This document shows positions 52,440 through 64,000 of a stretch of 64,000 bases of DNA, in pieces. The notes below the pieces were generated by a model. That model was not told the DNA's origin, made no database searches, and saw only the letters and a program-made list of their open reading frames with translations. Within the stretch, counting starts at the first letter, position 1; every line of letters begins with the position of its first letter. The stretch is from Xanthobacter autotrophicus (GTDB taxonomy: Bacteria > Pseudomonadota > Alphaproteobacteria > Rhizobiales > Xanthobacteraceae): contig NZ_VAUP01000015.1 of the NCBI RefSeq assembly GCF_005871085.1, forward strand, positions 372,001 to 436,000, in the 5' to 3' direction. The position numbers and the translations under genes are program-made.

Positions 52440-52937
52440 CTACCGCAGCCGCGCCAAGAGCTTCAGCAGCGTGGCGCGCTCGGCCGGATCAAGCGGCGCC
52501 AGCGTTTCCTCGGTGATGGCGAAGGCGTTGGGGGTGGCGCGGGCGATCACCGCGCGTCCCGCCTCGGTGGGCAGCACCACGAGGAGCCGCGCATCCTCGG
52601 GGTCGGGCCGGGTCTCCACGAAGCCGCGCCGCGCGAGCCGGTCCACCACGCCCTTGATGGTGGCCGCATCCATGGCGGTGTGGCGGCCCAGAAGATTCTG
52701 CGAGCAGGGGCCGGTCTCGGCCAGCTTCGCCAGCGCGGCCCATTGGGTCATGGTGAGCTCGTCACCGATGCGCGCGGCGAACAAGGTGGCATGGCGCTGC
52801 GCCACCTGGCGCAGCATGAAGCCGACCTGCTCGTCGAGGATATAGGGCGCGATGGCCTTGGCGCGGCGCGCCGGGCGGCGGGGAGGCGCGGCCTCCGCCG
52901 GTTCGGCCTTGACCGCTGCGGACTTTCTTTGAGCCAT
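52440..52937 (-). CDS. MarR-family regulator, NicR/BpsR-like
   Basis: MarR proteins are dimeric winged-helix regulators that release DNA on binding a small aromatic. The 165-residue product has a basic, alanine-rich N-terminal tail and then YILDEQVGFMLRQVAQRHATLFAARI. The winged helix follows: TMTQWAALAKLAETGPCSQNLLGRHTAMDAATIKGVVDRLARRG. These blocks resemble NicR of Pseudomonas putida and BpsR of Bordetella, repressors of nicotinate genes that respond to 6-hydroxynicotinate. It is the last gene of the operon, two bases after livF. The NicR role is inferred from similarity and context. Confidence 0.85.
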   Translation of the reverse strand: MAQRKSAAVKAEPAEAAPPRRPARRAKAIAPYILDEQVGFMLRQVAQRHATLFAARIGDELTMTQWAALAKLAETGPCSQNLLGRHTAMDAATIKGVVDRLARRGFVETRPDPEDARLLVVLPTEAGRAVIARATPNAFAITEETLAPLDPAERATLLKLLARLR

Positions 52938-52939
52938 GC

Positions 52940-53644
52940 CTACACCGCCAGATATGCGTCGCGAATCTCGGGGTTCGCCTCAAGGTCCGCCATGGTACCA
53001 GAGAACCTTATGCGACCCTTCTCGATAATATAGGCGCGATCCGAGATCAGCTTGGCGAAGTGCAGGTTCTGCTCCGAGATGACGATGGAGAGGCCCTGTT
53101 TCTTCATGGTGAGGATGGCATCCGCCATCTGCTCCACGATCTTGGGCGCGAGCCCCTCGGAGGGTTCGTCCAGCAGTACCAGGGAGGGATTGCCCATGAG
53201 CGTGCGGCCGATGGTGAGCATCTGCTGCTCGCCGCCGCTCATCTGGCCGCCGGGGCGCTTGCGCATCTCGCCGAGGTTGGGGAACAGCACATAGAGCTGC
53301 TCCGGGCTCCAGGTGGCGACGCCGGGGCGCGGCGCCTGCCGGCCCACCATGAAGTTCTCCTCCACGGTGAGCTGGTTGAAGATGCGCCGGTCCTCGGGCA
53401 CGTAGCCGAGGCCCCGGCGCACGATCTCATAGGTGGGCAGGGCGGAGACATCTTCCCCGTCGAATACCACCGTGCCGGCGCGCTGGGGCACGAGGCCCAC
53501 GATGGAGCGGAAGGTGGTGCTCTTGCCAGCGCCGTTGCGGCCGAGCAGCGCCACCACTTCGCCGGCGCCTACCTCCAGCCCCACGTCGTAGAGGATGTGG
53601 GCCGGGCCGTAATGGCTGTTGAGGTTCGAGACCTGGAGTTTCAT
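52940..53644 (-). CDS. Branched-chain-type ABC importer ATP-binding protein, LivF family
   Basis: One of the two ATPases of the importer in the nicotinate operon, 234 residues. Walker A is GRNGAGKST, the signature MSGGEQQMLTIGRTL, Walker B LVLLDEPSEGLAP, and the YEIVRRGLGYVPEDRRIFNQLTVEEN block is typical of LivF. ATG 53644 overlaps the LivG-like stop by four bases. HAAT-type importers of this kind carry amino acids, amides, urea or aromatic acids. Its position argues for nicotinate or a related pyridine. Confidence 0.92.
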   Translation of the reverse strand: MKLQVSNLNSHYGPAHILYDVGLEVGAGEVVALLGRNGAGKSTTFRSIVGLVPQRAGTVVFDGEDVSALPTYEIVRRGLGYVPEDRRIFNQLTVEENFMVGRQAPRPGVATWSPEQLYVLFPNLGEMRKRPGGQMSGGEQQMLTIGRTLMGNPSLVLLDEPSEGLAPKIVEQMADAILTMKKQGLSIVISEQNLHFAKLISDRAYIIEKGRIRFSGTMADLEANPEIRDAYLAV

Positions 53645-54423
53645 GCGGCGCTCCCCTCGCGATGCCGGGCGTCGTAGAGCAGGCCCTCGCCGAGATAGAT
53701 GGCGCGGACCTGCGGGTCGCGGCGCACCTCCAGTGGCGTGCCACGGGCGATAAGCTGGCCGCGGTTCAGCACCATCACCGCGTCGGCGTGCTCGAACACC
53801 ACGTCCATGTCGTGCTCGGTGAAGAGCACGCCGATGCCCTTCTCCCGCGCGATCTCGGCGGTGAGGCGCATCAGCTCCACCCGCTCCTTGGGGGCCATGC
53901 CTGCGGTGGGCTCGTCCATCAGCAGCAGGCGCGGCTGGTTGGCCAGCGCCACCGCCAGCTCCAGCCGCTTGAGGTCGCCATAGGCCAGCTCCCCGCACGG
54001 CCGCTCGGCCTGGGAGGTGAGGCCCACCAGCTCCAGCAGGCCCTCGGCCTCGGCCCGGCAGGCGGTGCCGGCGAAGCCGAACACGCGCCGGATCAGTCCG
54101 TGGAACGAGAGCAGCGCCACCTGCACGTTCTCCCGCACCGTCATGGAGGAGAAGGTGGCGGTTATCTGGAACGTGCGCCCCACCCCGAGCCGCCACACCG
54201 CGCGCGGCGGCAGGCCCTTGATGTCGCGCCCGTCGATGCGGATGGTGCCGGCATCGGGCTTGATCTGGCCGTTCAACATGTTGAAGCAGGTGCTCTTGCC
54301 CGCCCCGTTGGGGCCGATGAGCGCCAGGAGCGTGCCCGCCTCCAGGCTGAAGGTGACGCCGCGCACCGCATGGACGCCGCCATAGGATTTCTCGAGGTTC
54401 TCGACCTGAAGCAGCAAGCTCAT
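53641..54423 (-). CDS. Branched-chain-type ABC importer ATP-binding protein, LivG family
   Basis: The partner ATPase, 260 residues. Walker A is GPNGAGKST, Walker B LLLMDEPTAGMAP, and the C-terminal extension IYLGEGLLYDARHREG is LivG-like, ending after the characteristic V-x-x-x-YLG. The signature helix is LAYGDLKRLELAVAL, a slight variant of the usual LSYGxQR. ATG 54423 overlaps the permease stop by four bases. It is co-translated with the permease and LivF-like genes. Confidence 0.92.
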   Translation of the reverse strand: MSLLLQVENLEKSYGGVHAVRGVTFSLEAGTLLALIGPNGAGKSTCFNMLNGQIKPDAGTIRIDGRDIKGLPPRAVWRLGVGRTFQITATFSSMTVRENVQVALLSFHGLIRRVFGFAGTACRAEAEGLLELVGLTSQAERPCGELAYGDLKRLELAVALANQPRLLLMDEPTAGMAPKERVELMRLTAEIAREKGIGVLFTEHDMDVVFEHADAVMVLNRGQLIARGTPLEVRRDPQVRAIYLGEGLLYDARHREGSAA

Positions 54424-56312
54424 CGCGCGGCCTCCACCTTGGCAAGGGTTGCGGCCTCGGCTGCGGCCTTTTTCGGGGCGAACCAGCGGTGGCGCATGTC
54501 CTCGATGAAGCCCACCACCCCTTTCGGGAAGGCCAGCACCACCACCACGATCACCGCCCCCAGCACCAGCTTGGAGAGGTCGGTCTGGCTCATGAGCCAG
54601 ATGGCCAGCGCCTTGTAGAGCACCGCCCCCACCACCGCGCCGGACACCGTCTCGATGCCGCCCAGCAGCACCATGACGAGGCCGTCCACCGAGGTCGGGA
54701 TGCCCATGAAATCGGGGAACACCGAGCCCTTCAGGAAGGCGTAGAGCGCCCCGGCGATGCCCGCGAAGGTGCCGGCCACCACGAAGGCGGCCCATTGCAG
54801 GCGCGCCCGGTCCAGCCCGATGGCCTCGGCGCGCAGGGTGCTGTCGCGCACCGCCCTAAGGCCATAGCCGAACGGCGAGAACACCAGCATCCGCAGCAGG
54901 CCGACGCCGATCACCGCCACCGCCAGCGCCAGCCAGAAGAAGCCCTGCGGCCGCGCCGCCCACGTCGACGGCCAGATGCCCAGCAGGCCGTTGTCGCCCC
55001 CCGTCACGTCCACCCACTGGAAGGCGATGGACCAGGCGATCTGCGCGAAGGCCAGCGTCAGCATGGCGAAATAGACGCCCGACAGCCGCACGCAGAACCA
55101 GCCGAACAGCACCGCCCCCACCAGCCCCAAAACCGGGCCGACGAGGAGGGCCGCCTCCATGGGCGCGCCGAGGAACTTCACCATGAAGGCCGCGCCATAG
55201 GCCCCGAGGCCGAAATAGGCGGCATGGCCGAAGGAGGCGAGGCCGCCCACGGTCATGATGAAATGCAGGCTGGCTGCGAACAGCACGAAGATGAGGATTT
55301 CCGCGCCCACGGTGAGGGCATAATTGCCGAGAAAGAAGGGCAGCGTCGCCACCGCGGCCACCGCCACGGCCACCGCCACCCGCTCGGCGGTGGAGAACGG
55401 CCGCCACGGGCGGATAGTGAGGCCGGCGGCGGGCCGCGGCGCGCTCTCGGCCTTGCCGAACAGGCCCCAGGGCCGCACCACCAGCACCACCGCCATCACC
55501 AGGAACACCATGATGAGTGAGATCTGGGGCAGGATGAGAATGCCGAAGGCGTTCAGCTCCGCCACGATGATGGCGGCGACGAACGCCCCCAGCACCGAGC
55601 CCAGCCCGCCGATGACCACCACCACGAACACTTCCACGATAACGGAGAGGTCCATGGTGTGGGTCACCGTGGTGCGCGGGATCTGCAAGGCGCCGCCCAG
55701 CGCGGCGAGGAAGACGCCCAGCGCAAACACACCGGTGAACAGCCATTTCTGGTTCACGCCGAGGGCCGCCACCATCTCGCGATCCTGCGTCGCCGCGCGC
55801 ACCAGCACGCCCCAGCGGGTCTGGTGGAACAGCAGCCACAGGGCGCCGAGCACCACGGGGCCGAGCACCATCAGGAACAGATCGTAGGTGGGCACCATGC
55901 GGCCGAACAGGCTCACCGCGCCGGCAAGGCCGGGGGCGCGTGGGCCGAGCAGGTCCTCAGGCCCCCAGATGACGACCACGAGGTCCTGCACCATCAGCGT
56001 CACGCCGAAGGTGGCGAGGAGCTGGAACAGTTCGGGGGCGTGATAGATGCGGCGCAGCAGCACCATTTCCATCAGTGCGCCCATGGCCGCGACGATGACC
56101 GAGGCGGCGAGGATCGCGCCCCAGAAGCCGATGGGGCCGGCAAGGCGCGTGGTGAGCATGTAGGCCACGTAGGCGCCCAGCATGTAGAAAGCGCCGTGCG
56201 CGAAATTCACGATGCGCGTCACGCCGAAGATGATCGACAGGCCCGACGCCACCAGAAACAGCGACGCGGCGCTGGCGAGCCCGCTCAGGGCCTGGACCAA
56301 CAGGAATTCCAC
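54420..56312 (-). CDS. Fused branched-chain-type ABC permease (LivH-LivM in one chain)
   Basis: In most HAAT importers LivH and LivM are two proteins; here one 630-residue chain holds both. The N-terminal half (about 1-290) is LivH-like, with FLVASGLSIIFGVTRIVNFAHGAFYMLGAYVA and GGLGSVLGAFVAAIIV. After a linker (about 295-320, RPWGLFGKAES) the LivM-like half begins, with VGGLASFGHAAYFGLGAYGAAF and a GGIETVSGAVVGAVLY block. Roughly 17 hydrophobic segments are visible. The start is GTG 56312, preceded by GAGGCGAG. The frame upstream to 56465 runs into repeat DNA. It overlaps livG by four bases. Confidence 0.9.
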   Translation of the reverse strand: MEFLLVQALSGLASAASLFLVASGLSIIFGVTRIVNFAHGAFYMLGAYVAYMLTTRLAGPIGFWGAILAASVIVAAMGALMEMVLLRRIYHAPELFQLLATFGVTLMVQDLVVVIWGPEDLLGPRAPGLAGAVSLFGRMVPTYDLFLMVLGPVVLGALWLLFHQTRWGVLVRAATQDREMVAALGVNQKWLFTGVFALGVFLAALGGALQIPRTTVTHTMDLSVIVEVFVVVVIGGLGSVLGAFVAAIIVAELNAFGILILPQISLIMVFLVMAVVLVVRPWGLFGKAESAPRPAAGLTIRPWRPFSTAERVAVAVAVAAVATLPFFLGNYALTVGAEILIFVLFAASLHFIMTVGGLASFGHAAYFGLGAYGAAFMVKFLGAPMEAALLVGPVLGLVGAVLFGWFCVRLSGVYFAMLTLAFAQIAWSIAFQWVDVTGGDNGLLGIWPSTWAARPQGFFWLALAVAVIGVGLLRMLVFSPFGYGLRAVRDSTLRAEAIGLDRARLQWAAFVVAGTFAGIAGALYAFLKGSVFPDFMGIPTSVDGLVMVLLGGIETVSGAVVGAVLYKALAIWLMSQTDLSKLVLGAVIVVVVLAFPKGVVGFIEDMRHRWFAPKKAAAEAATLAKVEAAR

Positions 56313-56513
56313 TTGTCTCGCCTCTCGTTCACCGGCCTGGAAGGGGTTTTGTTCTTGGACCCGCCGCCGTCGAGGGAGGAGGGTGTTGCGGCAAGGGCGC
56401 GGGCGCCCTGGCCTTTTGGTTTGCACCGGCTGGCCCCCGGCGGGAAAGGGAGAAGCCCTTCGCACGGACGGTGCCTTCGAGCGTCGAGCCCGCCATTCGT
56501 GCCATCCCGCCCT

Positions 56514-56552
56514 GCCCCCTCTCCCGCTTGCGGGGGAGGGTTGGGGTGGGGG
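56514..56552 (+). repeat. Dispersed GC-rich palindromic repeat, copy 2
   Basis: Same core as the copy at 52205, CCCTCTCCCGCTTGCGGG, followed by GGAGGGTTGGGG and GTGGGGG. Confidence 0.8.
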
Positions 56553-56596
56553 AACGCGGCGCTACCCGCCAGCACACTGCCTAAAGGAGAGGCCCT

Positions 56597-56636
56597 GCCC
56601 CCTCCCCGGCACTCCCCCGCAAGCGGGAGAGGGGGA
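56597..56636 (-). repeat. Dispersed GC-rich palindromic repeat, copy 3 (inverted)
   Basis: The reverse orientation of the same core, CCCCCGCAAGCGGGAGAGGG, lies 44 bases from copy 2, so the pair can form a long stem. Confidence 0.8.
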
Positions 56637-56643
56637 GACAACC

Positions 56644-57852
56644 TCAGTTGGCCGGGCGCAGCTTGGCGGCTTCGGCTTCCGGCGGCAGGTAGTCGGCGCC
56701 GGGCTTGAAGGTGAAGTTCACCATCACGCCCTTGCCGTCCTGCTGCGCGGTGGTGCCGATATAGGCGCCCAGCGTCGACTGGTGGTCGCCGGCGCGATAG
56801 ACGATGTCGCCGAAGGGGGTTGAAACCTTCAGGTTCTTCATGGCCTTGACGATGCCGTCGGTGGTGTGGTCGTCGGTAGCCTTCAGCACCGCGGCGATGG
56901 ACTTCACCGTCGAGTAGCCGACGATGGAGCCGAGGCGCGGATAGTCCTTGTGGAGCTGCTGGTAGGCGTCGAGGAACGCCTGATGCTCGGCGGTCTTGAT
57001 GCCGTACCAGGGATAGCCGGTGACGATCCAGCCTTCCGGCGTCTCGGTCTTCAGCGGGTCGAGATATTCCGGCTCGCCGGTGAGATAGCTCACCACCGCG
57101 CGGTCCTTGAAGATGCCGCGGGTATTGCCCTCGCGCACCAGCTTCACCAGGTCGCCGGCGAAGGTGGCGTTGAGGATGGCGTCGGGCTTGGCGGCGTCGA
57201 TGGCCTGAAGCACCGGGCCGGCGTCGATCTTGTTGAGCGGCGGCCACTGCTCGGCCACGAATTCCACATCCGGCCGCTTCTTCTTGAGCAGGTCCTTGAA
57301 CACCGCCACGAACGACTGACCGAATTCATAATTGGGGGCGATGGTGGCCCAGCGCTTGGCGGGCAGCTTTGCCGCCTCTTCCGCCAGCATGGCGGCCTGC
57401 ATGTAGTTCGAGGTGCGCAGGCGGAAGGTGTAGTCGTTGCCCTTCGACCAGACGATGGCATCGGTGAGCGGCTCGGCGGCGATGTAGACCACCTGCTTCT
57501 GCTTGGCGAAGTCCGCCAGAGCCAGCCCGACGTTGGAGAGGAAGCCGCCGGAGATCATCACAACACCATCGCGCGAGACCAGCTCGTTGGCGGCGGTGAG
57601 GGCGTCAGCGGGCTTGCCGCCGTCATCCTTGGAGATGATGACCAGCTTCTTGCCCTTGATGCCGCCGGCGTCGTTGATCTCCTTCAGCGCCAGTTCCATG
57701 CCCTTGCGATAGGGCTCGGTGAAGGCGGGCAGCGCCGAATAGGAATTGATCTCGCCCACCTTGATCTCGCCTTCGAGCGCCTTCGCGGCGCCGGAGGCGA
57801 GCAGCAGGGCGGCGAACGTCGCCCCGAATGTTGCACTGATGAGTTTCTTCAT
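56644..57852 (-). CDS. Branched-chain-type ABC importer substrate-binding protein, LivK family
   Basis: This 402-residue periplasmic protein captures solute for the LivHMGF-like importer. The signal peptide has core FGATFAALLLASGAAKALEG, with cleavage near the ALEG. Family blocks are IKVGEINSYSALPAFTEPYRKGMELALKEINDAGGIKGKKL, KPADALTAANELV and YEFGQSFVAVFKDLLKK. The mature chain lacks cysteine. The gene lies 53 bases after the AA_synth gene and leads the transport part of the operon. Nicotinate or 6-hydroxynicotinate is the expected ligand by context, but the binding site cannot be read directly. Confidence 0.9.
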   Translation of the reverse strand: MKKLISATFGATFAALLLASGAAKALEGEIKVGEINSYSALPAFTEPYRKGMELALKEINDAGGIKGKKLVIISKDDGGKPADALTAANELVSRDGVVMISGGFLSNVGLALADFAKQKQVVYIAAEPLTDAIVWSKGNDYTFRLRTSNYMQAAMLAEEAAKLPAKRWATIAPNYEFGQSFVAVFKDLLKKKRPDVEFVAEQWPPLNKIDAGPVLQAIDAAKPDAILNATFAGDLVKLVREGNTRGIFKDRAVVSYLTGEPEYLDPLKTETPEGWIVTGYPWYGIKTAEHQAFLDAYQQLHKDYPRLGSIVGYSTVKSIAAVLKATDDHTTDGIVKAMKNLKVSTPFGDIVYRAGDHQSTLGAYIGTTAQQDGKGVMVNFTFKPGADYLPPEAEAAKLRPAN

Positions 57853-57905
57853 GTGCTGTTCCCCTGTTTATCCGAAGTCCTGCACTACAGGCTGCGCCGC
57901 CCGGT

Positions 57906-58490
57906 TCAGCGCAAGCCGTCCTCACCCTTGATCTCGTCCGCCTTCAGCCCGCCGACGCGCGGCAGCGGCCGGCCGGAATCAGTCACCGCCACGGCCACCA
58001 CGATCTCATTGGCGCGGGGCGCGTCGGAAATGCTCACCTGCATGCCGTCGAAATGGCTGCGCACGAAGGCAGCGTCCTTGTGTCCCAAAGGAATGTCCAG
58101 CTCCGCGCCCAGCCCGCCGCGCCGCTTGGACGAGGGGATGAGCGCCGCGCCCTTGCCGAGCACCGCGCGCACCGGCGCGCCCATCTTGGGATGCAAGAGC
58201 GCGGCCGCATGCTCCAGCTCGCCGTTCTCGCCCACCAGCGCGGCCTTGCCGTAGCTCTGCGCCGCAGGCCCCTCGATGCCCAGCGCCGCCACGGCGCGGG
58301 CCGCCAGCAGGCCGCCCAGCTCCTCGCCCATGGCGATGAGGTCGGAGAGGTCTTCCACATAGGTACCGGCGAACGGGTTCTCGATCACCGCCACCGCCGC
58401 CGCCCGGCGGGTGGGCGGGGAGACGGGGCGGCCCATCTCCGTCCGCGTCTCCTCGACGATGGTGACGATCTTGCGGATTTTCGCGCTCAT
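57906..58490 (-). CDS. AA_synth-family protein (DUF1185), paralogue 1
   Basis: A 194-residue soluble protein of the AA_synth family (named amino-acid synthesis, but without a proven reaction). Conserved blocks shared with its neighbour are ENPFAGTYVED (37-47), YGKAALVG, GELEH (90-94), PSSK (119-122), H137 with D139, RSHFD (144-148) and SDAP (155-158). The many conserved Glu, His, Asp and Lys residues look like an active site. It overlaps paralogue 2 by four bases and has no signal peptide. Because the pair lies between 6-hydroxynicotinate reductase and the importer, a role in ring opening or later nitrogen release is likely. Confidence 0.85.
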   Translation of the reverse strand: MSAKIRKIVTIVEETRTEMGRPVSPPTRRAAAVAVIENPFAGTYVEDLSDLIAMGEELGGLLAARAVAALGIEGPAAQSYGKAALVGENGELEHAAALLHPKMGAPVRAVLGKGAALIPSSKRRGGLGAELDIPLGHKDAAFVRSHFDGMQVSISDAPRANEIVVAVAVTDSGRPLPRVGGLKADEIKGEDGLR

Positions 58491-59071
58491 CGCAGGCCGT
58501 CCCGCTTGGAGATGTCCGCCGCCGCGAGGCCACCCACGCGGGCATGGACGCGCGGCCCGCAGGTCATCACCAGCACCAGAGCGATCTCGTCGGCCTTGGG
58601 GGCGTCGGATACGCCGACTTCCATGGCGTCGAAGTGGCTCCGCACATAGGAGGCATCGCTATGGGTCACCGGCACGTCGAGGCGCGTGCCCGGCCCGCCC
58701 ACCTTCTTGGTGGAGGGCACGATGGCCAAAGCGTCGCCCAGGGCTTCGCGCATGGCGTAGCCGCCGGGAACATGCCACAGGGCGCCGTGCTCGATCTCGC
58801 CGGCGGCGCCCACGATGGCGCCCTTGCCATAGCCGTCCACGGCGGCCGGATCACCGCCGAGGGTCTTGACCAGCTCCTTCGCCATGGCGACGCCCAGCGG
58901 CTTCAGATCCTCCATGAAGGGCGCGATGTCCTCCACATAGCGGCCGGCATAGGGGTTCTCGATGACCGTGACGATGGCGGCGCGACGGCGCGGCGTGGCG
59001 GCGACGGGGCCGCCTTCGTGGAAGATCTCCTCCACGATCCGGACCTGCTTGCGGATCTTGACCTCAGGCAT
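58487..59071 (-). CDS. AA_synth-family protein (DUF1185), paralogue 2
   Basis: Also 194 residues and aligned end to end with paralogue 1: ENPYAGRYVED, YGKGAIVG, GEIEH, VRSHFDAM and SDAP are kept. The two differ most in residues 50-75 and 95-112. That leaves the likely catalytic set intact in both, so they may be subunits of one heteromer or act on successive substrates. The gene overlaps the UPF0280 gene by eight bases and paralogue 1 by four, so all three are translationally coupled. I cannot name the reaction. Confidence 0.85.
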   Translation of the reverse strand: MPEVKIRKQVRIVEEIFHEGGPVAATPRRRAAIVTVIENPYAGRYVEDIAPFMEDLKPLGVAMAKELVKTLGGDPAAVDGYGKGAIVGAAGEIEHGALWHVPGGYAMREALGDALAIVPSTKKVGGPGTRLDVPVTHSDASYVRSHFDAMEVGVSDAPKADEIALVLVMTCGPRVHARVGGLAAADISKRDGLR

Positions 59072-60020
59072 GAGCTGCTTCGCTTTCTTGTTGGCGGGCG
59101 AGGGACAAAGCGGAACGGCCGGGAAACCTCCCCTCGGCCGGATCGGTGGAAACGCTCACGCCCTGCAGATGCAGCGCGGCGGAGGAGATGAGGCCCCGCC
59201 CCACAAGGGCGGAGGCGCAGGCAAGGCCCTCCGCCAGCGCCTCATGGACCTCGGCGGGGGAAAGCTGCGGCACGGCGCGCGTCACCTTCAGCGGGCCGAG
59301 GTCGCTGTCGCTCTGCACCTCGCGGGCGGCCATGCGGACGATGCCGGGATGGCCGGGCAGGTTCACCGCATTGGCGATGACGGTGGCCGCCGCATCCGCC
59401 GCCGCGGCGGTGGGGGCAAGCACGGTGACGGCATCGGCGATGCCGAGGGAAAAGCTGCGCCCGCGCCAGCCCGAGGTGGCGATGCCGCGCACCGGGCTCT
59501 CCGCGCCCACCCGCGCCGTGCCGATGAGGCTCGGCCGGTCCGGGCGATCCACGAGGCCGGCCACATAGTCGGCCCCCGGCGCCAGATGAAGGGCGATATC
59601 GCCGCCATTGTTCACATAGGCGCGGGCGATGCCGGGCAGCGCCAGCGCTTCCAGCACCTCCTCGGCCACCGCGCCGGCCACCGCCGCCATGGGGGTGATG
59701 AAGCCGGCCCGGGCGTGGGGCTCAACCGCCGCCCACATGCGCCGGGCCACCTTCCCGTCGAGCGGGCAGGCCCCCGCATAGGCGGGACGGCGCAGCAAAG
59801 GCAGTTCCGCGCACAGCTCATCCAGCAGGCCAGTGAGCCGCGCCACCGCCGCCCGGTAGGCTGCCGCCACCTGCCGGGGATCGCCGCTCGCCTCCAAGAC
59901 GAGGTCGATGGGACCATCGTTCAGGTGCAGCCGGCGCCCGTCCGCAAGCAGCTTGACCTGCGGCGCGCGGGGCGCCACCGGCGGGGCTGCGAGGGGGGCG
60001 GACAATGCAGCATTCAGCAT
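59064..60020 (-). CDS. UPF0280-family protein (ApbE-like fold)
   Basis: A 318-residue soluble protein of the UPF0280 family, related in fold to the FAD-transferase ApbE and without an assigned function. Typical blocks are ITPMAAVAGAVAEEVLEAL, ARAYVNNGGDIALHL, VRGIATSGWRGRSFSLGIADAVTVLA, and DAAATVIANAVNLPG. ATG 60020 follows the reductase stop by five bases. The short N-terminal 30 residues are alanine/proline-rich. Members are found beside 6-hydroxynicotinate reductase and AA_synth genes, as here, so a pathway role (flavin attachment or substrate hydrolysis) is inferred only. Confidence 0.85.
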   Translation of the reverse strand: MLNAALSAPLAAPPVAPRAPQVKLLADGRRLHLNDGPIDLVLEASGDPRQVAAAYRAAVARLTGLLDELCAELPLLRRPAYAGACPLDGKVARRMWAAVEPHARAGFITPMAAVAGAVAEEVLEALALPGIARAYVNNGGDIALHLAPGADYVAGLVDRPDRPSLIGTARVGAESPVRGIATSGWRGRSFSLGIADAVTVLAPTAAAADAAATVIANAVNLPGHPGIVRMAAREVQSDSDLGPLKVTRAVPQLSPAEVHEALAEGLACASALVGRGLISSAALHLQGVSVSTDPAEGRFPGRSALSLARQQESEAAHA

Positions 60021-60025
60021 GGCCG

Positions 60026-61531
60026 TCAGCCTTGCGAGCGGGTCGAGAGCGGCCAGGGATTGTCGCCGATGGGCGCCACTTCCCGCACGCTGTCGCGGTG
60101 AAGGATATCGCCCACCGGCCGCACATGGTCCATGTGCCCGCCGAGCGCGGCGTAGGCCTCCAGCGTCAGCGTGAACTCGATGGGTGCCACGAGAGCCGGC
60201 GTGGGCACATAGCCGAAAGCATTCTCCGGCACCCGCATCACATCCACCATGAAGGTGATGCCGCCGCCCGGCCAGACGTAGACCGGCGCGCCGCCGCAGG
60301 TGACACGGGTGATGGCCTCCTTCACCGAGCGGGTGAGCCGCACCGGATTTTCCGTCACCCCCGCGCGCAGCGATCCGCCGGCCCCGGCCATGAACAGCAC
60401 GGACGACAGCGCCGGCTCGCAATTCTCGCGGATGCGCTCCACGGAGGGGGCGAGATCTTGCGGGATGTCGGCCTCGCGCGGCACCAGGTTTTCGTCGAGC
60501 ACATAATAGCCGAAATGCTCGCCGGTGGTGGAGACCAGCAGCAGCCGCAGGCCGGGCCAGGCCGCCTTGGCATCGAACGCGCCGAGGATGGAGAGCGGAT
60601 CGGAAATATTGGTGCCGCCCCAGCCCAGCCCCGGCTCGGCCACCTGGAAATAGCGGCCGGGGGTGGAGCGGCGGCCCTTCATGCGGATGCCGGTGTCGCG
60701 CACGCCCAGAAGCTTGCCGGCCTGATGCTCGGAGAGGACGCCGGTGATGTGGTCGTCCACCACCACCACCTCGTCCACCTTGCCGAACCATTGCCGCGCG
60801 AACATGCCGATGGTGGCGGAGCCGCAGCCCACCCGCATGCGTTCTTCCTGCGATCCATTGACGATGGGCGCATGGCCGGCCTGCACGATGATGCTCGCGC
60901 CACCATCCACGGTGAGTTCCACCGGCTTGGCATTGCACAGGTCGAGGAGCGCCTCGCAGGTGACGCGGCCTTCCTTCTTGGCCCCGCCGGTGAGGTGGTG
61001 GACCCCGCCCAGCGACAGCATCTGCGAACCGTATTCAGAGGTGGTGACATGGCCCACCGGCTCGCCGGCCACGCGCACGGTGGCCTGCTCCGGGCCAAGG
61101 AAGCGATCGGTGTCGATCTTCACCTTCACGCCGGCATAGGAAAAGATGCCCTCCGTGACCACGGTCACCATGTCCACGCCGTTCACCTCGGCAGAGACGA
61201 TGAAGGGGGCGGGCTTGTAGTCGGGATAGGTGGTGCCGGAGCCCACGGCGGTGACGAAGGTGCCGCCATCGGCCACCAGGCGCCCGTCCCAGTCGCCGCC
61301 GCGATCGAAGGGCACCACCTTGCCGCCCTGCTCCAGCGTGCGGTCGAGGATAACGTGGGGATCGACGCGGATCAGCTCGCCGGCGCGGTTGGCGTAGCGA
61401 TCGCAGGCACCGGTGTTGCCGGGCTTGATGTAGCACATGACCGGGCAGGCATCGCAGCGGATCTTGTCGTCGGCAGCCGATGCGGCGACGGGGGTCTGGC
61501 CTGAGGCGTCGCCTTGGATGTTCTGCGCCAT
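60026..61531 (-). CDS. 6-hydroxynicotinate reductase
   Basis: This iron-sulfur enzyme reduces 6-hydroxynicotinate to 1,4,5,6-tetrahydro-6-oxonicotinate, the step that breaks aromaticity in the reductive nicotinate pathway known in Azorhizobium and Eubacterium barkeri. The 501-residue product has a four-cysteine cluster near the N-terminus: Cys26, Cys29, Cys33 and Cys43 (RCDACPVMCY ... GACDRY), suited to a [4Fe-4S] centre. Further family blocks are GTTYPDYKPAPFIVSAEVNGVDMVT and SEYGSQMLSLGGVHHLTGG. It leads the long minus-strand operon and faces the nicotinate dehydrogenase genes. The assignment rests on recognised family sequence plus this context. Confidence 0.88.
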   Translation of the reverse strand: MAQNIQGDASGQTPVAASAADDKIRCDACPVMCYIKPGNTGACDRYANRAGELIRVDPHVILDRTLEQGGKVVPFDRGGDWDGRLVADGGTFVTAVGSGTTYPDYKPAPFIVSAEVNGVDMVTVVTEGIFSYAGVKVKIDTDRFLGPEQATVRVAGEPVGHVTTSEYGSQMLSLGGVHHLTGGAKKEGRVTCEALLDLCNAKPVELTVDGGASIIVQAGHAPIVNGSQEERMRVGCGSATIGMFARQWFGKVDEVVVVDDHITGVLSEHQAGKLLGVRDTGIRMKGRRSTPGRYFQVAEPGLGWGGTNISDPLSILGAFDAKAAWPGLRLLLVSTTGEHFGYYVLDENLVPREADIPQDLAPSVERIRENCEPALSSVLFMAGAGGSLRAGVTENPVRLTRSVKEAITRVTCGGAPVYVWPGGGITFMVDVMRVPENAFGYVPTPALVAPIEFTLTLEAYAALGGHMDHVRPVGDILHRDSVREVAPIGDNPWPLSTRSQG

Positions 61532-61580
61532 GGAGGGCGGGCTCCGGCCCCGGCGGACAGCCGGCGGGGCGATTTCGATT

Positions 61581-61602
61581 TCATATGTACACTAATGAAA
61601 AA
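61581..61602. promoter_or_regulatory. Candidate MarR-type operator upstream of 6-hydroxynicotinate reductase
   Basis: Arms TTTCAT and ATGAAA flank a ten-base centre, ATGTACACTA, containing GTAC. The element is AT-rich in GC-rich surroundings and lies 50-71 bases before the reductase ATG, where an RNA-polymerase site is expected. It has the size of a MarR operator and the operon encodes one MarR protein. The link is inference. Confidence 0.5.
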
Positions 61603-61875
61603 GGAGCAGCCCAAAGTGTCAAGCACAAGGATGAGGCACGCCGCCCGAAGAGGCAGCAGACCTGTCCTATCCTTTTGCGGCCACAGGTTTATGACCTGTC
61701 ATGCGCCGCTTCAGGGCGGGTGGGCGCGCCGCGCATTTGTGCGCAGTGCGCGCTTGACGCCAGATCATTCGTATAGAAACAATCCAGGGAAGCGTGAGGC
61801 GTGTCGCCTCGCGCTGTGAGCGTTTTAAAGTTCGACGCGATGGGCTTTTTCTCACCCCTTCCGCCCTCTACCGCC

Positions 61876-61983
61876 GTCATGGCCGGGCTTGTCCCAGCCA
61901 TCCACGCGGGGAGGCTGGGATCGGTTTTCGGACGTTGTCCCAAGCCGCTCGGCGTGGATGCCCGGGACGAGCCCGGGCATGAC
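61876..61983. repeat. Long intergenic inverted repeat
   Basis: Two 32-base arms (61876-61907 and 61952-61983) match in 28 positions and are separated by 44 bases. Each arm begins with GTCATG and ends with CATCCACGC (read inward). The element could fold into a cruciform or RNA stem. Similar GTCATG-GCCGGGCTT elements recur between genes in this bacterial order. Confidence 0.8.
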
Positions 61984-62064
61984 ATCGCGCGGGAGGCAAG
62001 TTCGGCCGAGTTGTCAAACATGCTCTTAAACACTGGCACGTCCGAATAGCGGACCGAAACGAAG

Positions 62065-62538
62065 ATGTCCGAGCCGGTTCAATTTCAGGTGAATGGCACA
62101 GCGCACGCGTTCGCGCTGCCCCGCTCCACGCCCCTCATCTATGTGCTGCGCAACGACCTGGGCCTCAACGGCCCCAAGTTCGGCTGCGGGCTGGGGGAGT
62201 GCGGCGCCTGCACCGTGCTCATGGACGGCGTCGCCGCCCGCTCCTGCGTCACCACCTTGGGCACGGCGGAGGGGCGCGCCATCACCACGCTGGAGGGCCT
62301 CGGCACCCTTGCGGCGCCCCACCCCGTGCAGGCCGCCTTCATCGCCGAGCAGGCAGCGCAATGCGGCTACTGCCTGAATGGCATGATCATGACCACCGTC
62401 GCCTTCCTCGCCCGCACCCCCTCGCCCACGGAGGACGAGGTCCGCGCCGCCCTGCGCTACAATCTGTGCCGGTGCGGGACCCATGTGGAGATCCTGCGCG
62501 CGGTGATGCGCGCCGCCCACGGGGAGGCAAGCGAATGA
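62065..62538 (+). CDS. Nicotinate dehydrogenase small subunit, [2Fe-2S] (NicA-like)
   Basis: The small subunit of a xanthine-dehydrogenase-family molybdenum hydroxylase passes electrons from the molybdenum centre. The 157-residue product has both [2Fe-2S] motifs: the plant-ferredoxin-like Cys41, Cys46, Cys49 and Cys61 (GCGLGECGACTVL), and the helical-bundle Cys100, Cys103, Cys135 and Cys137 (CGYC ... CRC). Length and sequence resemble NicA of Pseudomonas putida, which with NicB makes 6-hydroxynicotinate from nicotinate. The ATG of the next gene overlaps its stop (ATGA). The NicA role is supported by the reductase next door. Confidence 0.85.
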   Translation: MSEPVQFQVNGTAHAFALPRSTPLIYVLRNDLGLNGPKFGCGLGECGACTVLMDGVAARSCVTTLGTAEGRAITTLEGLGTLAAPHPVQAAFIAEQAAQCGYCLNGMIMTTVAFLARTPSPTEDEVRAALRYNLCRCGTHVEILRAVMRAAHGEASE

Positions 62539-64000
62539 CCGAGCCGCGCCCGGACAAGAACCAGATCCTCGCCGCCACCGGCACTCTCTGCGTGCTGCGG
62601 CCGGCGCAATCCGTCGCCGGCCTCCAGCGCAGCGCCATGCCACGGGACGGCGCCCTCGACCTGTTCCTGCTGGTGGACGACACCGGCGCCGTCACCGCTT
62701 TCAACGGCCATGTGGACCTCGGCACCGGCATCCGCACGGCGCTGACCCAGATCGTGGCCGAGGAGCTGGACGTGGCGCTGGAGCGCGTCACCATGGTGCT
62801 CGGCCACACCGGCCTTGCGCCCAACCAGGGCGCCACCATCGCCTCCGATTCCATCCAGGTCTCCGCCCAGCCCCTGCGCCGCGCCGCCGCGCAGGCCCGC
62901 CACCGGCTGGTGGAACTCGCCGCCGAGACGCTGGGGCTGGACGCCGACACGCTGGAGGTGGAGGACGGCATCGTCCGCCCCCGCGACGGCGGCAATGCCG
63001 GCCTCACCTACGCCGATCTGCTGAAGGGCCGCGCCGAGCGCCTGCTTCTTTCCGACGACATCCCGGTGAAGCCCGCCAGCGCCCACCGCATCGTCGGCCA
63101 GCGGGTGCCGCGGGTGGACATCCCCGCCAAGGCCACGGGCAGCTTCACCTATGTGCATGACGTGCGCGTGCCCGCCATGCTGCACGGCCGCGTGGTGCGC
63201 CCGCCCTATGCCGGCATCGACGCGGGCGAGTTCGTCGGCAAAAGCCTCATCTGGGTGGATGAGGCCTCGGTGGCGCATATTCCCGGCATGGTGGCGGTGG
63301 TCACCATGGGCGATTTCGTGGGCGTGGTGGCCGAACGCGAGGAGCAGGCCGCCGAAGCCGCCCGTCGCCTGAAGGTGGAGTGGAAGCCCACCCCCACCCT
63401 GCCCGACCTCGACAACGTGGAGAACGCGCTGCGCGCGATCCCAGCCGAGAACCGGCGCACCCTGCATGAGCGCGGCGACCCCGACGCCGCCCGCGCGGCC
63501 GCAGCCGAGACCCTCGACCGCACTTATGTGTGGCCCTACCAGATGCACGCCTCCATCGGCCCCTCGTGCGCGGTGGCGAATGTGGGCGAGGATGGCGCCA
63601 CTATCTGGGCCGGCACGCAGAATCCCTATCCCCTGCGCATGGATATCGCCCTGCTGCTGGGCCTGCCGGAAGAGGCGGTGGAGATCGTCCGCTTCGAGGC
63701 CGCCGGCTGCTATGGCCGCAATTGCGCGGACGACGTGGCCGCCGACGCCGCCCTGCTGTCGCGCGCCGTGGGCCGTCCGGTGCGGGTGCAGCTGACCCGC
63801 GAGCAGGAGCATGCATGGGAGCCCAAGGGCGCCGCCCAGCTCATGCAGGTGAAGGGCGGCCTCAACGCCGACGGCACACCTGCGGCCTACGATTTCAACA
63901 CCCGCTATCCCTCCAACGCGGCGGTGACCCTGGCGCTGCTGCTGACGGGACGGGTGCCGGCGGACAATCCCGTGTTCGAGATGGGCGACCGCACCGCCAT
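62535..64000 (+). CDS. Nicotinate dehydrogenase large, molybdopterin-binding subunit (NicB-like; 3' end outside window)
   Basis: The frame starts at ATG 62535, overlapping the small-subunit stop by four bases, and is open to the last base, giving 488 codons without a stop. It reads as an aldehyde-oxidase/xanthine-dehydrogenase-type Mo subunit. The molybdopterin domain starts with LVDDTGAVTAFNGHVDLGTGIRTALTQIVAEELDV, and a Q-x-x-H-like ASIGPSCAVAN block follows. YGRNCADDVAADAALLSRAVGRPVRVQLTREQE is the typical MoCoBD stretch. No FAD subunit lies between this gene and the [2Fe-2S] subunit. NicB of Pseudomonas carries C-terminal cytochrome c domains; whether this one does cannot be seen here. 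Confidence 0.85.
   Translation, partial: MTEPRPDKNQILAATGTLCVLRPAQSVAGLQRSAMPRDGALDLFLLVDDTGAVTAFNGHVDLGTGIRTALTQIVAEELDVALERVTMVLGHTGLAPNQGATIASDSIQVSAQPLRRAAAQARHRLVELAAETLGLDADTLEVEDGIVRPRDGGNAGLTYADLLKGRAERLLLSDDIPVKPASAHRIVGQRVPRVDIPAKATGSFTYVHDVRVPAMLHGRVVRPPYAGIDAGEFVGKSLIWVDEASVAHIPGMVAVVTMGDFVGVVAEREEQAAEAARRLKVEWKPTPTLPDLDNVENALRAIPAENRRTLHERGDPDAARAAAAETLDRTYVWPYQMHASIGPSCAVANVGEDGATIWAGTQNPYPLRMDIALLLGLPEEAVEIVRFEAAGCYGRNCADDVAADAALLSRAVGRPVRVQLTREQEHAWEPKGAAQLMQVKGGLNADGTPAAYDFNTRYPSNAAVTLALLLTGRVPADNPVFEMGDRTA

Follow-up and report, generated by a model that had tools for sequence, protein, structure and literature searches.

Gene families around 6-hydroxynicotinate reductase in a nicotinate locus of Xanthobacter autotrophicus and in related genomes

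Genes of the locus and the nicotinate pathway

A stretch of 64,000 nucleotides from Xanthobacter autotrophicus (assembly GCF_005871085.1, contig NZ_VAUP01000015.1, G000:C1:372001-436000), referred to below as the window, ends in a locus for nicotinate catabolism (52440-64000), which was followed for a further 17 kb to the right of the window in the region L004. The minus strand carries hnr, encoding 6-hydroxynicotinate reductase (Hnr), a gene of the UPF0280 (COG2122) family, two AA_synth (DUF1185) genes named AA1 and AA2, a Liv-type ABC importer and a MarR regulator, and the plus strand carries, divergently, nicA and nicB (Table 1). The genes of the locus are real, far beyond chance. This gene list, drawn up earlier in a sequence-only reading, was confirmed with Pfam and NCBIfam models, the name of Hnr resting on a published cluster (PMC3511419). 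The AA_synth pair matched PF06684 with 244.9 and 244.2 bits (cut-off 27), and a 296-aa piece of the UPF0280 protein matched NF003322 with 422.3 bits (cut-off 290); the start of this last gene was refined to the ATG at 60020. The gap between hnr and UPF0280 is 5 bp, and overlaps of 8 bp (UPF0280/AA1) and 4 bp (AA1/AA2) follow. Full-length NicB, completed from the genome (L004:1536-5084), has 1182 aa with the Pfam domains MoCoBD_2, MoCoBD_1, Cytochrom_C (two stretches) and Cytochrome_CBB3. The closest named relatives of hnr were found in three Xanthobacter strains at 97-98% and in a fourth at 85%.

Table 1. Features of the nicotinate locus, in window numbering unless another numbering is given.
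Feature	Position	Strand	Basis
MarR-family regulator, NicR-like by position	52440..52937	-	Pfam MarR 8e-13
LivF-type importer ATPase	52940..53644	-	ORF (open reading frame); same-order homologues in relatives; start set by eye
LivG-type ATPase	53641..54423	-	Pfam ABC_tran 1.2e-32, BCA_ABC_TP_C 4.9e-10; start set by eye
Fused LivH/LivM permease	54420..56312	-	ORF; homologues in relatives; start set by eye
LivK-like periplasmic binding protein	56644..57852	-	Pfam Peripla_BP_6 2.2e-68
AA2, AA_synth subtype tracking enamidase	57906..58490	-	PF06684 4.5e-73; AA2 clade SH-aLRT (Shimodaira-Hasegawa-like approximate likelihood ratio test) 97
AA1, AA_synth subtype after UPF0280 in enamidase and HyuA genomes	58487..59071	-	PF06684 7e-73; tree, context
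UPF0280/COG2122 protein, 318 aa, proposed Hnr maturation factor	59064..60020	-	NF003322 8.3e-127; co-occurrence with Hnr; fold
6-Hydroxynicotinate reductase (Hnr)	60026..61531	-	Cluster of PMC3511419; invariant N-terminal Cys
Divergent hnr/nicA promoter region, two operator-like sites	61532..62064	.	CATTNGTRTANA sites
NicA-like [2Fe-2S] subunit	62065..62538	+	Pfam Fer2_2 1.4e-26
NicB-like molybdopterin/cytochrome c subunit	62535..64000, on to L004:5084 (= 66083)	+	
Enamidase, 399 aa amidohydrolase	G000:C1:440006-441205 = L004:7007-8206 = 68006-69205		phmmer to 2VUN

The earlier reading had reported no enamidase, which holds for the window itself but not for the genome, where an enamidase gene starts 4006 bp past window position 64000. 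Its product matched the solved structure 2VUN with a phmmer value of 9.2e-111 over 381 aa, the second-best match being 5.5e-6; the chain is labelled ENAMIDASE, and we take it to be the enzyme of Eubacterium barkeri. This alignment retains the amidohydrolase-site positions (HxH, Glu, His, His and Asp), and the residues presumably serve as metal ligands. Between nicB and the enamidase gene lies a ferredoxin-NADP reductase-like gene (NF008178, 7.7e-52, 176 bits, under the cut-off of 390). Because the enamidase follows the end of the window, the predicted gap at the ring-opening step does not exist. Genes beyond 64000 had been offered as one alternative for this step, and the enamidase was indeed found there; the central idea, ring opening by the AA_synth and UPF0280 proteins, failed on a condition that the earlier reading had itself named as refuting, an enamidase of the canonical kind close behind the window. 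The proposed sequence of uptake, hydroxylation and then reduction was upheld.

Judged from these genes, this Xanthobacter-like bacterium very probably has the whole upper part of a nicotinate pathway like that of Azorhizobium caulinodans; Xanthobacter and A. caulinodans belong to one family. Nicotinate would be taken up by the importer and converted by NicAB to 6-hydroxynicotinate, with electrons passing to cytochrome c. Hnr, supplied by reduced ferredoxin, perhaps via the product of the ferredoxin-NADP reductase-like gene, would reduce 6-hydroxynicotinate to 1,4,5,6-tetrahydro-6-oxonicotinate (THON), and enamidase would convert THON to 2-formylglutarate by opening its ring, with loss of ammonia. 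The available part of PMC9304392 summarises the THON route in Azorhizobium and in E. barkeri, the enamidase of the latter being bifunctional.

A closely similar Hnr cluster that includes the genes of the first three steps was described in 2012 in Azorhizobium, Bradyrhizobium, Rhodopseudomonas and the strain SG-6C (PMC3511419). As far as the accessible sections of that article go, which mention neither NicA nor NicB, the cluster of A. caulinodans, Bradyrhizobium japonicum, Rhodopseudomonas palustris and SG-6C has in common with the present locus Hnr, the first-three-step genes, an ABC importer and conserved proteins whose function is unknown, of which there are two in that cluster and three here; unlike in that cluster, the enamidase gene starts here about 6.5 kb from the hnr start, behind NicB and the reductase-like gene. 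The window locus is an unexceptional case of the reductive pathway of Azorhizobium type, the essentials of which are already published, and with a known pathway at the locus the search for a new ring opener here is needless. What the comparison with relatives adds is a set of associations, firm and open to testing, that involve UPF0280, AA2 and a ring opener of the HyuAB type, and with them testable roles for UPF0280/COG2122 and AA_synth/DUF1185, two families without a settled function, and the suggestion of HyuAB as an alternative opener of the reduced nicotinate ring.

Hnr and enamidase are also common to this locus and the nicotinate fermentation cluster of E. barkeri. The nicotinate dehydrogenase of that organism is reportedly a selenium-containing FAD (flavin adenine dinucleotide) enzyme, and formylglutarate is said to be reduced and fermented there, whereas NicAB with cytochrome c domains is found here. 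The nic cluster of Pseudomonas putida is reported to have the same NicA/NicB architecture; its later steps are oxidative, and those here reductive. A maleamate-pathway cluster of the Pseudomonas nic kind, with its later genes elsewhere, would suit the NicA/NicB-type dehydrogenase with its cytochrome c domains, but is highly improbable at this locus, where Hnr and enamidase complete the reductive route. Moreover, neither NicC nor NicD, NicX, NicE or NicF was recognised among the ORFs of the 17 kb right of the window, which were inspected by eye with no homology search run for NicC or the others.

The neighbourhood of hnr was compared in 26 named loci and in a sample of 385 alphaproteobacterial genomes, 68 of which have Hnr (E up to 1e-30). 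The combination of NicA/NicB and the reductive pathway, which the earlier reading had singled out, is present here but is not unique, as it occurs in 7 of the 26 named loci (Xanthobacter, Rhodopseudomonas, Bradyrhizobium). With the NicAB type defined by a NicB of 60% or more, this type stands beside hnr in two of the 68 genomes (G000 and G361); only weaker NicB-like matches (26-42%) were obtained in 60, and none in the region in six. A FAD-subunit gene recurs in 32 of 40 clustered loci (Pfam confirmed one representative). The NicAB-hnr pairing therefore represents one version of a step whose enzyme can itself be exchanged.

UPF0280 as a probable partner of Hnr

Hnr gave no match among Pfam or NCBIfam models, nor among PDB sequences. 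Its name rests on PMC3511419, where the part consulted reports, for a cluster of this kind, a homologue that shares 42% identity with the Hnr of E. barkeri. The N-terminal residues Cys26, 29, 33 and 43 are invariant. The AlphaFold2 model of Hnr was poor (predicted local distance difference test, pLDDT, 62.4; predicted template modelling score, pTM, 0.45).

UPF0280 (NF003322 type, E up to 1e-10) was found in the identical 68 genomes. The two genes lie on one contig and strand in 67 of them, spaced -10 to 225 bp apart (median 35; 66 within 200 bp), and on separate contigs in the 68th, G231. UPF0280 also follows hnr in all 26 named loci, with about 1 kb between them in L025, and AA_synth comes next after UPF0280 in 25 of these, the contig of the 26th ending there. 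Since kinship among the genomes inflates the Fisher value, weight was placed on the absence of any exception to the Hnr/UPF0280 association over 42 genera. UPF0280 is probably a dedicated maturation factor of Hnr.

The fold of UPF0280 resembles that of flavin transferases. The AlphaFold2 model of UPF0280 (pLDDT 90.6) retrieved with Foldseek 2O34 of its own family (2.1e-9) and then the flavin transferases FmnB (1.9e-5) and ApbE (3.9e-4), at a probability of 1.00. The metal site of ApbE has the form Asp-x-x-x-Thr, and D209 and T213 of UPF0280, invariant in 23 sequences, stand opposite this Asp/Thr pair in a weak hhalign alignment. Hnr reportedly carries a covalent flavin. A canonical ApbE gave no match (E up to 0.001) in 38 of the 68 Hnr genomes, so UPF0280 is the candidate there if the flavin of Hnr requires an ApbE-type enzyme; the genome of the window has one canonical ApbE, elsewhere. 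It is tentatively proposed that UPF0280 attaches the covalent flavin of Hnr, which falls somewhat short of being probable. If true, this would be the first defined reaction for the family, as far as the literature reached shows.

Several results weigh against flavin attachment. The TM-scores of the UPF0280 model against the ApbE/FmnB chains among the matches listed were low (0.24-0.48), hhalign against one ApbE gave only 8% probability, and UPF0280 (318 aa) matched no Pfam family at E up to 0.01, PF02424 (ApbE) included. The catalytic region of ApbE is His-x-x-Asp-Pro and its target motif in the partner protein is D-x-x-(S/T)-(G/S)-(A/S/T)-(S/T). In place of the former, UPF0280 has an invariant GRSxSxG, and the latter was found in none of the 68 Hnr sequences. 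UPF0280 is like the ApbE/FmnB transferases in its Foldseek matches and differs from them in the Pfam result, the catalytic His region and the target motif. Additionally, homology of COG2122 is stated to stop short of the flavin-binding region of ApbE in the accessible part of PMC5764234, which assigns COG2122 to homocysteine synthesis in Desulfovibrio.

This last assignment leads to another possibility, that UPF0280 performs sulfur or Fe-S chemistry, as COG2122 is presumed to do in homocysteine synthesis, and serves in this way to mature Fe-S clusters in Hnr. In methanogens and Desulfovibrio the role of COG2122 is given as homocysteine synthesis or sulfide assimilation in the portions seen of PMC5764234 and PMC12068725; the former has COG2122 acting in Desulfovibrio with DUF39 and a NIL/ferredoxin protein, a persulfide modification being proposed, and the latter terms MA1715 a sulfur trafficking protein. 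The four invariant N-terminal cysteines of Hnr would suit such a role. The fold of UPF0280, its own family aside, is closest to the flavin transferases, however, and the D209/T213 pair matches the Asp/Thr of ApbE, if in a weak alignment, and Fe-S maturation is regarded as rather unlikely.

Ring opening in related genomes

With the enamidase of the window's genome as query, orthologues (at least 71% identical, E below 1e-180) were found in 30 of the 68 Hnr genomes and in none of the other 38; a match at E up to 1e-50 was obtained in 32, and G104 and G289, with homologues of 38-41% only, were counted as lacking the enzyme. Clustering of the ORFs around hnr brought out one further recurring family, HyuA, with a full ORF in 21 of 35 enamidase-less regions and in none of five enamidase regions; HyuB adjoins it in 13 and 0 of these regions, respectively. 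When HyuA orthologues (59% identity or more, E up to 1e-230) were counted genome-wide, HyuB being counted near hnr only, they were present in 36 of the 38 enamidase-less Hnr genomes and in none of the 30 enamidase genomes, whose best HyuA homologues among the matches listed reached 45-47%. Enamidase and HyuA orthologues are mutually exclusive among Hnr genomes.

The HyuA/HyuB pair of L076, taken as representative, showed Pfam Hydantoinase_A and Hydantoinase_B domains (3.9e-87, 4.8e-53 and 3e-162). The solved proteins closest to its HyuA were N-methylhydantoinase (1.3e-129) and 5-oxoprolinase (3.6e-108), with carboxylases at 3e-90 or weaker, and the closest to its HyuB was 6YRA_B (9.4e-84). Among the solved relatives of HyuA/HyuB, N-methylhydantoinase and 5-oxoprolinase thus stand ahead of acetone and acetophenone carboxylases. 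Distant HyuA/HyuB paralogues (33-35%) lie near hnr in the enamidase genome G300, and the genome of the window has one HyuB-family gene, on a different contig. Within the fetched stretch of the 26 named loci, enamidase was detected in 11 (one partial, one at 51%) and HyuA in one (L031).

Seven switches between the enamidase and HyuA states appear on the Hnr tree, and the starred branches force at least four enamidase-label and five HyuA-label changes. In independent pairs, HyuA was opposite to enamidase whenever the two members differed, with four supported pairs only. Ring opening appears to be carried out by interchangeable, unrelated enzymes, and HyuAB probably opens THON, at the cost of ATP, in these sister lineages. 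No earlier report of HyuAB as a THON opener was found in a literature search that reached few subscription journals; for nicotine, the part seen of PMC6346535 places an oxoprolinase in a glutathione context.

Some observations count against this exchange of ring openers. The four supported switches are insufficient for a sign test (p 0.125), and G226 and G313, which are 70% and 86% complete, have neither enamidase nor a HyuA orthologue. HyuA also occurs without Hnr in G114, G217, G307 and G383 (64-66%) and as a fragment in G127 (67%), and may therefore serve other lactams too. The first four of these genomes belong to one family (f115), and G114 and G383 also have AA_synth. A specificity of HyuA for Hnr genomes was rejected on this account, and the claim made is that of mutual exclusion with enamidase among Hnr genomes.

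Three HyuA-type loci, L080 (G104), L152 (G080) and L153 (G195), are nested in enamidase groups and retain an AA2-clade gene, and are possibly snapshots of recent swaps. Separately, hnr, UPF0280, AA_synth and enamidase were found together in two genome bins, L023 (enamidase at 51%) and L032 (hnr in two pieces, enamidase at 77%). The labels of the two bins, Actinomycetota and Acidobacteria, suggest inter-phylum transfer or mis-binning.

AA_synth subtypes and the hnr/nicA region

The AA_synth tree was built from 98 rows. A partial copy (G079:C33) was excluded by the length filter, and enamidase genomes have 11 further copies that are outside the tree. Of 22 genomes with AA_synth but no Hnr, the tree takes in three, which were chosen for high scores, and leaves out the copies of the other 19. 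The AA2 clade (34 rows) includes the AA2 of the window and a copy from each of the 30 enamidase genomes, its other members coming from G082 and from G080, G195 and G104, HyuA genomes that the Hnr tree places within enamidase groups. The clade is therefore represented in 30 of 30 enamidase genomes against 3 of the 38 other Hnr genomes, and the copies in these three are possibly leftovers. G082, which is the AA2-bearing one of the three Hnr-less genomes on the tree, also has enamidase (G082:C8:31988-33163; L168) and gave no match to Hnr or to UPF0280; its enamidase may act on some other lactam, or THON may be imported. At E up to 1e-120, enamidase was found in 15 of 240 genomes searched, 14 of which have Hnr. 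AA2 adjoins enamidase, apart from UPF0280, in eight genomes (G001, G007, G065, G185, G279, G303, G357 and G381). Against a strict link between AA2 and enamidase, an AA2-like gene stands in five named loci (L015, L017-L019 and L021) with no enamidase inside the fetched stretch.

The type of AA_synth beside UPF0280 was assigned by the better match. In the 36 HyuA genomes, AA1-like genes stand there alone in 20 and both types in one; in the 30 enamidase genomes, AA1 and AA2 are found together in 17, AA1 alone in three, AA2 alone in one and neither in nine, contig ends included. No AA_synth match was obtained in 9 of the 68 Hnr genomes, and AA_synth was rejected as an obligate partner of Hnr, being present in 59 rather than 68.

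Lys83, His95, His100 and His146 are conserved in at least 97 of the 98 rows. At AA1 position 176, by contrast, His is found in 54 of the 64 rows outside the AA2 clade and in 2 of the 34 inside it, where Leu (28) or Phe (4) takes its place; the AA2 of the window has Leu. Solved AA_synth proteins are described, in the part seen of PMC2954203, as hexameric, with a cavity and, at the dimer interface, a conserved cluster of four histidines, onto which a numbering offset maps four histidines of the present proteins, three of them retained in both subtypes. Since the histidine of AA1 position 176 in the mapped cluster is lost, the site of AA2 seems changed.

The cavity and histidine cluster, three histidines of which both subtypes keep, and the position of the AA_synth and UPF0280 genes directly behind hnr would be in line with the earlier idea that one or both of these proteins open the THON ring and release ammonia. 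This is nevertheless very improbable: enamidase is present near the locus, nine Hnr genomes manage without an AA_synth match, UPF0280 is kept whichever ring opener is present (all 38 enamidase-less Hnr genomes have it), 36 of those 38 have a HyuA-type gene, and AA2 accompanies enamidase rather than replacing it. From its distribution, AA2 looks like a partner of enamidase, not a substitute. It may act beside enamidase, most plausibly at the following step, where the enamine or formyl product would be its substrate and it might be a tautomerase, a decarboxylase or a helper of the semialdehyde dehydrogenase, a role offered tentatively. No recurring aldehyde dehydrogenase or decarboxylase beside hnr was recognised by eye among the representatives of ORF clusters present in at least four loci. 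Members of AA_synth (DUF1185) also occur in other heterocycle-degradation sets, TgnF for trigonelline and HcdD for 7-hydroxycoumarin, with different substrates; TgnF is cited as stimulating the oxidation of succinate semialdehyde, and for HcdD the effect was not observed, according to the available part of PMC7913881.

Put together, the Hnr branch may be modular. UPF0280 would always be required, installing the covalent flavin by a divergent ApbE-type reaction, and THON would be opened either by enamidase with AA2 or by the unrelated, ATP-dependent HyuAB, the two having been swapped several times. This composite is regarded as possible, with considerable doubt.

The genome of the window has a third AA_synth gene (L006:10032-10730, minus strand), which the tree places in a side branch of the AA1-containing clade. 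As seen by eye, it adjoins the apparent start of a beta-hydroxyacid dehydrogenase gene and an ABC transporter.

In the divergent hnr/nicA region, two inverted CATTNGTRTANA sites were observed at 61586-61597 (-) and 61766-61777 (+), both retained in four Xanthobacter relatives. They are the only matches in the window with up to one mismatch; the pattern itself comes from this pair of sites, and the chance expectation is 0.72. The sites are likely MarR operators, and MarR homologues are present in 12 of 25 clustered loci. A stretch of about 215 bp with short inverted repeats (~61815-62029) is absent from the close Xanthobacter relatives L007-L009, L010 being too divergent around it for comparison. 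The stretch is possibly a small repeat element, although one 14-base piece of it occurs a single time in the window.

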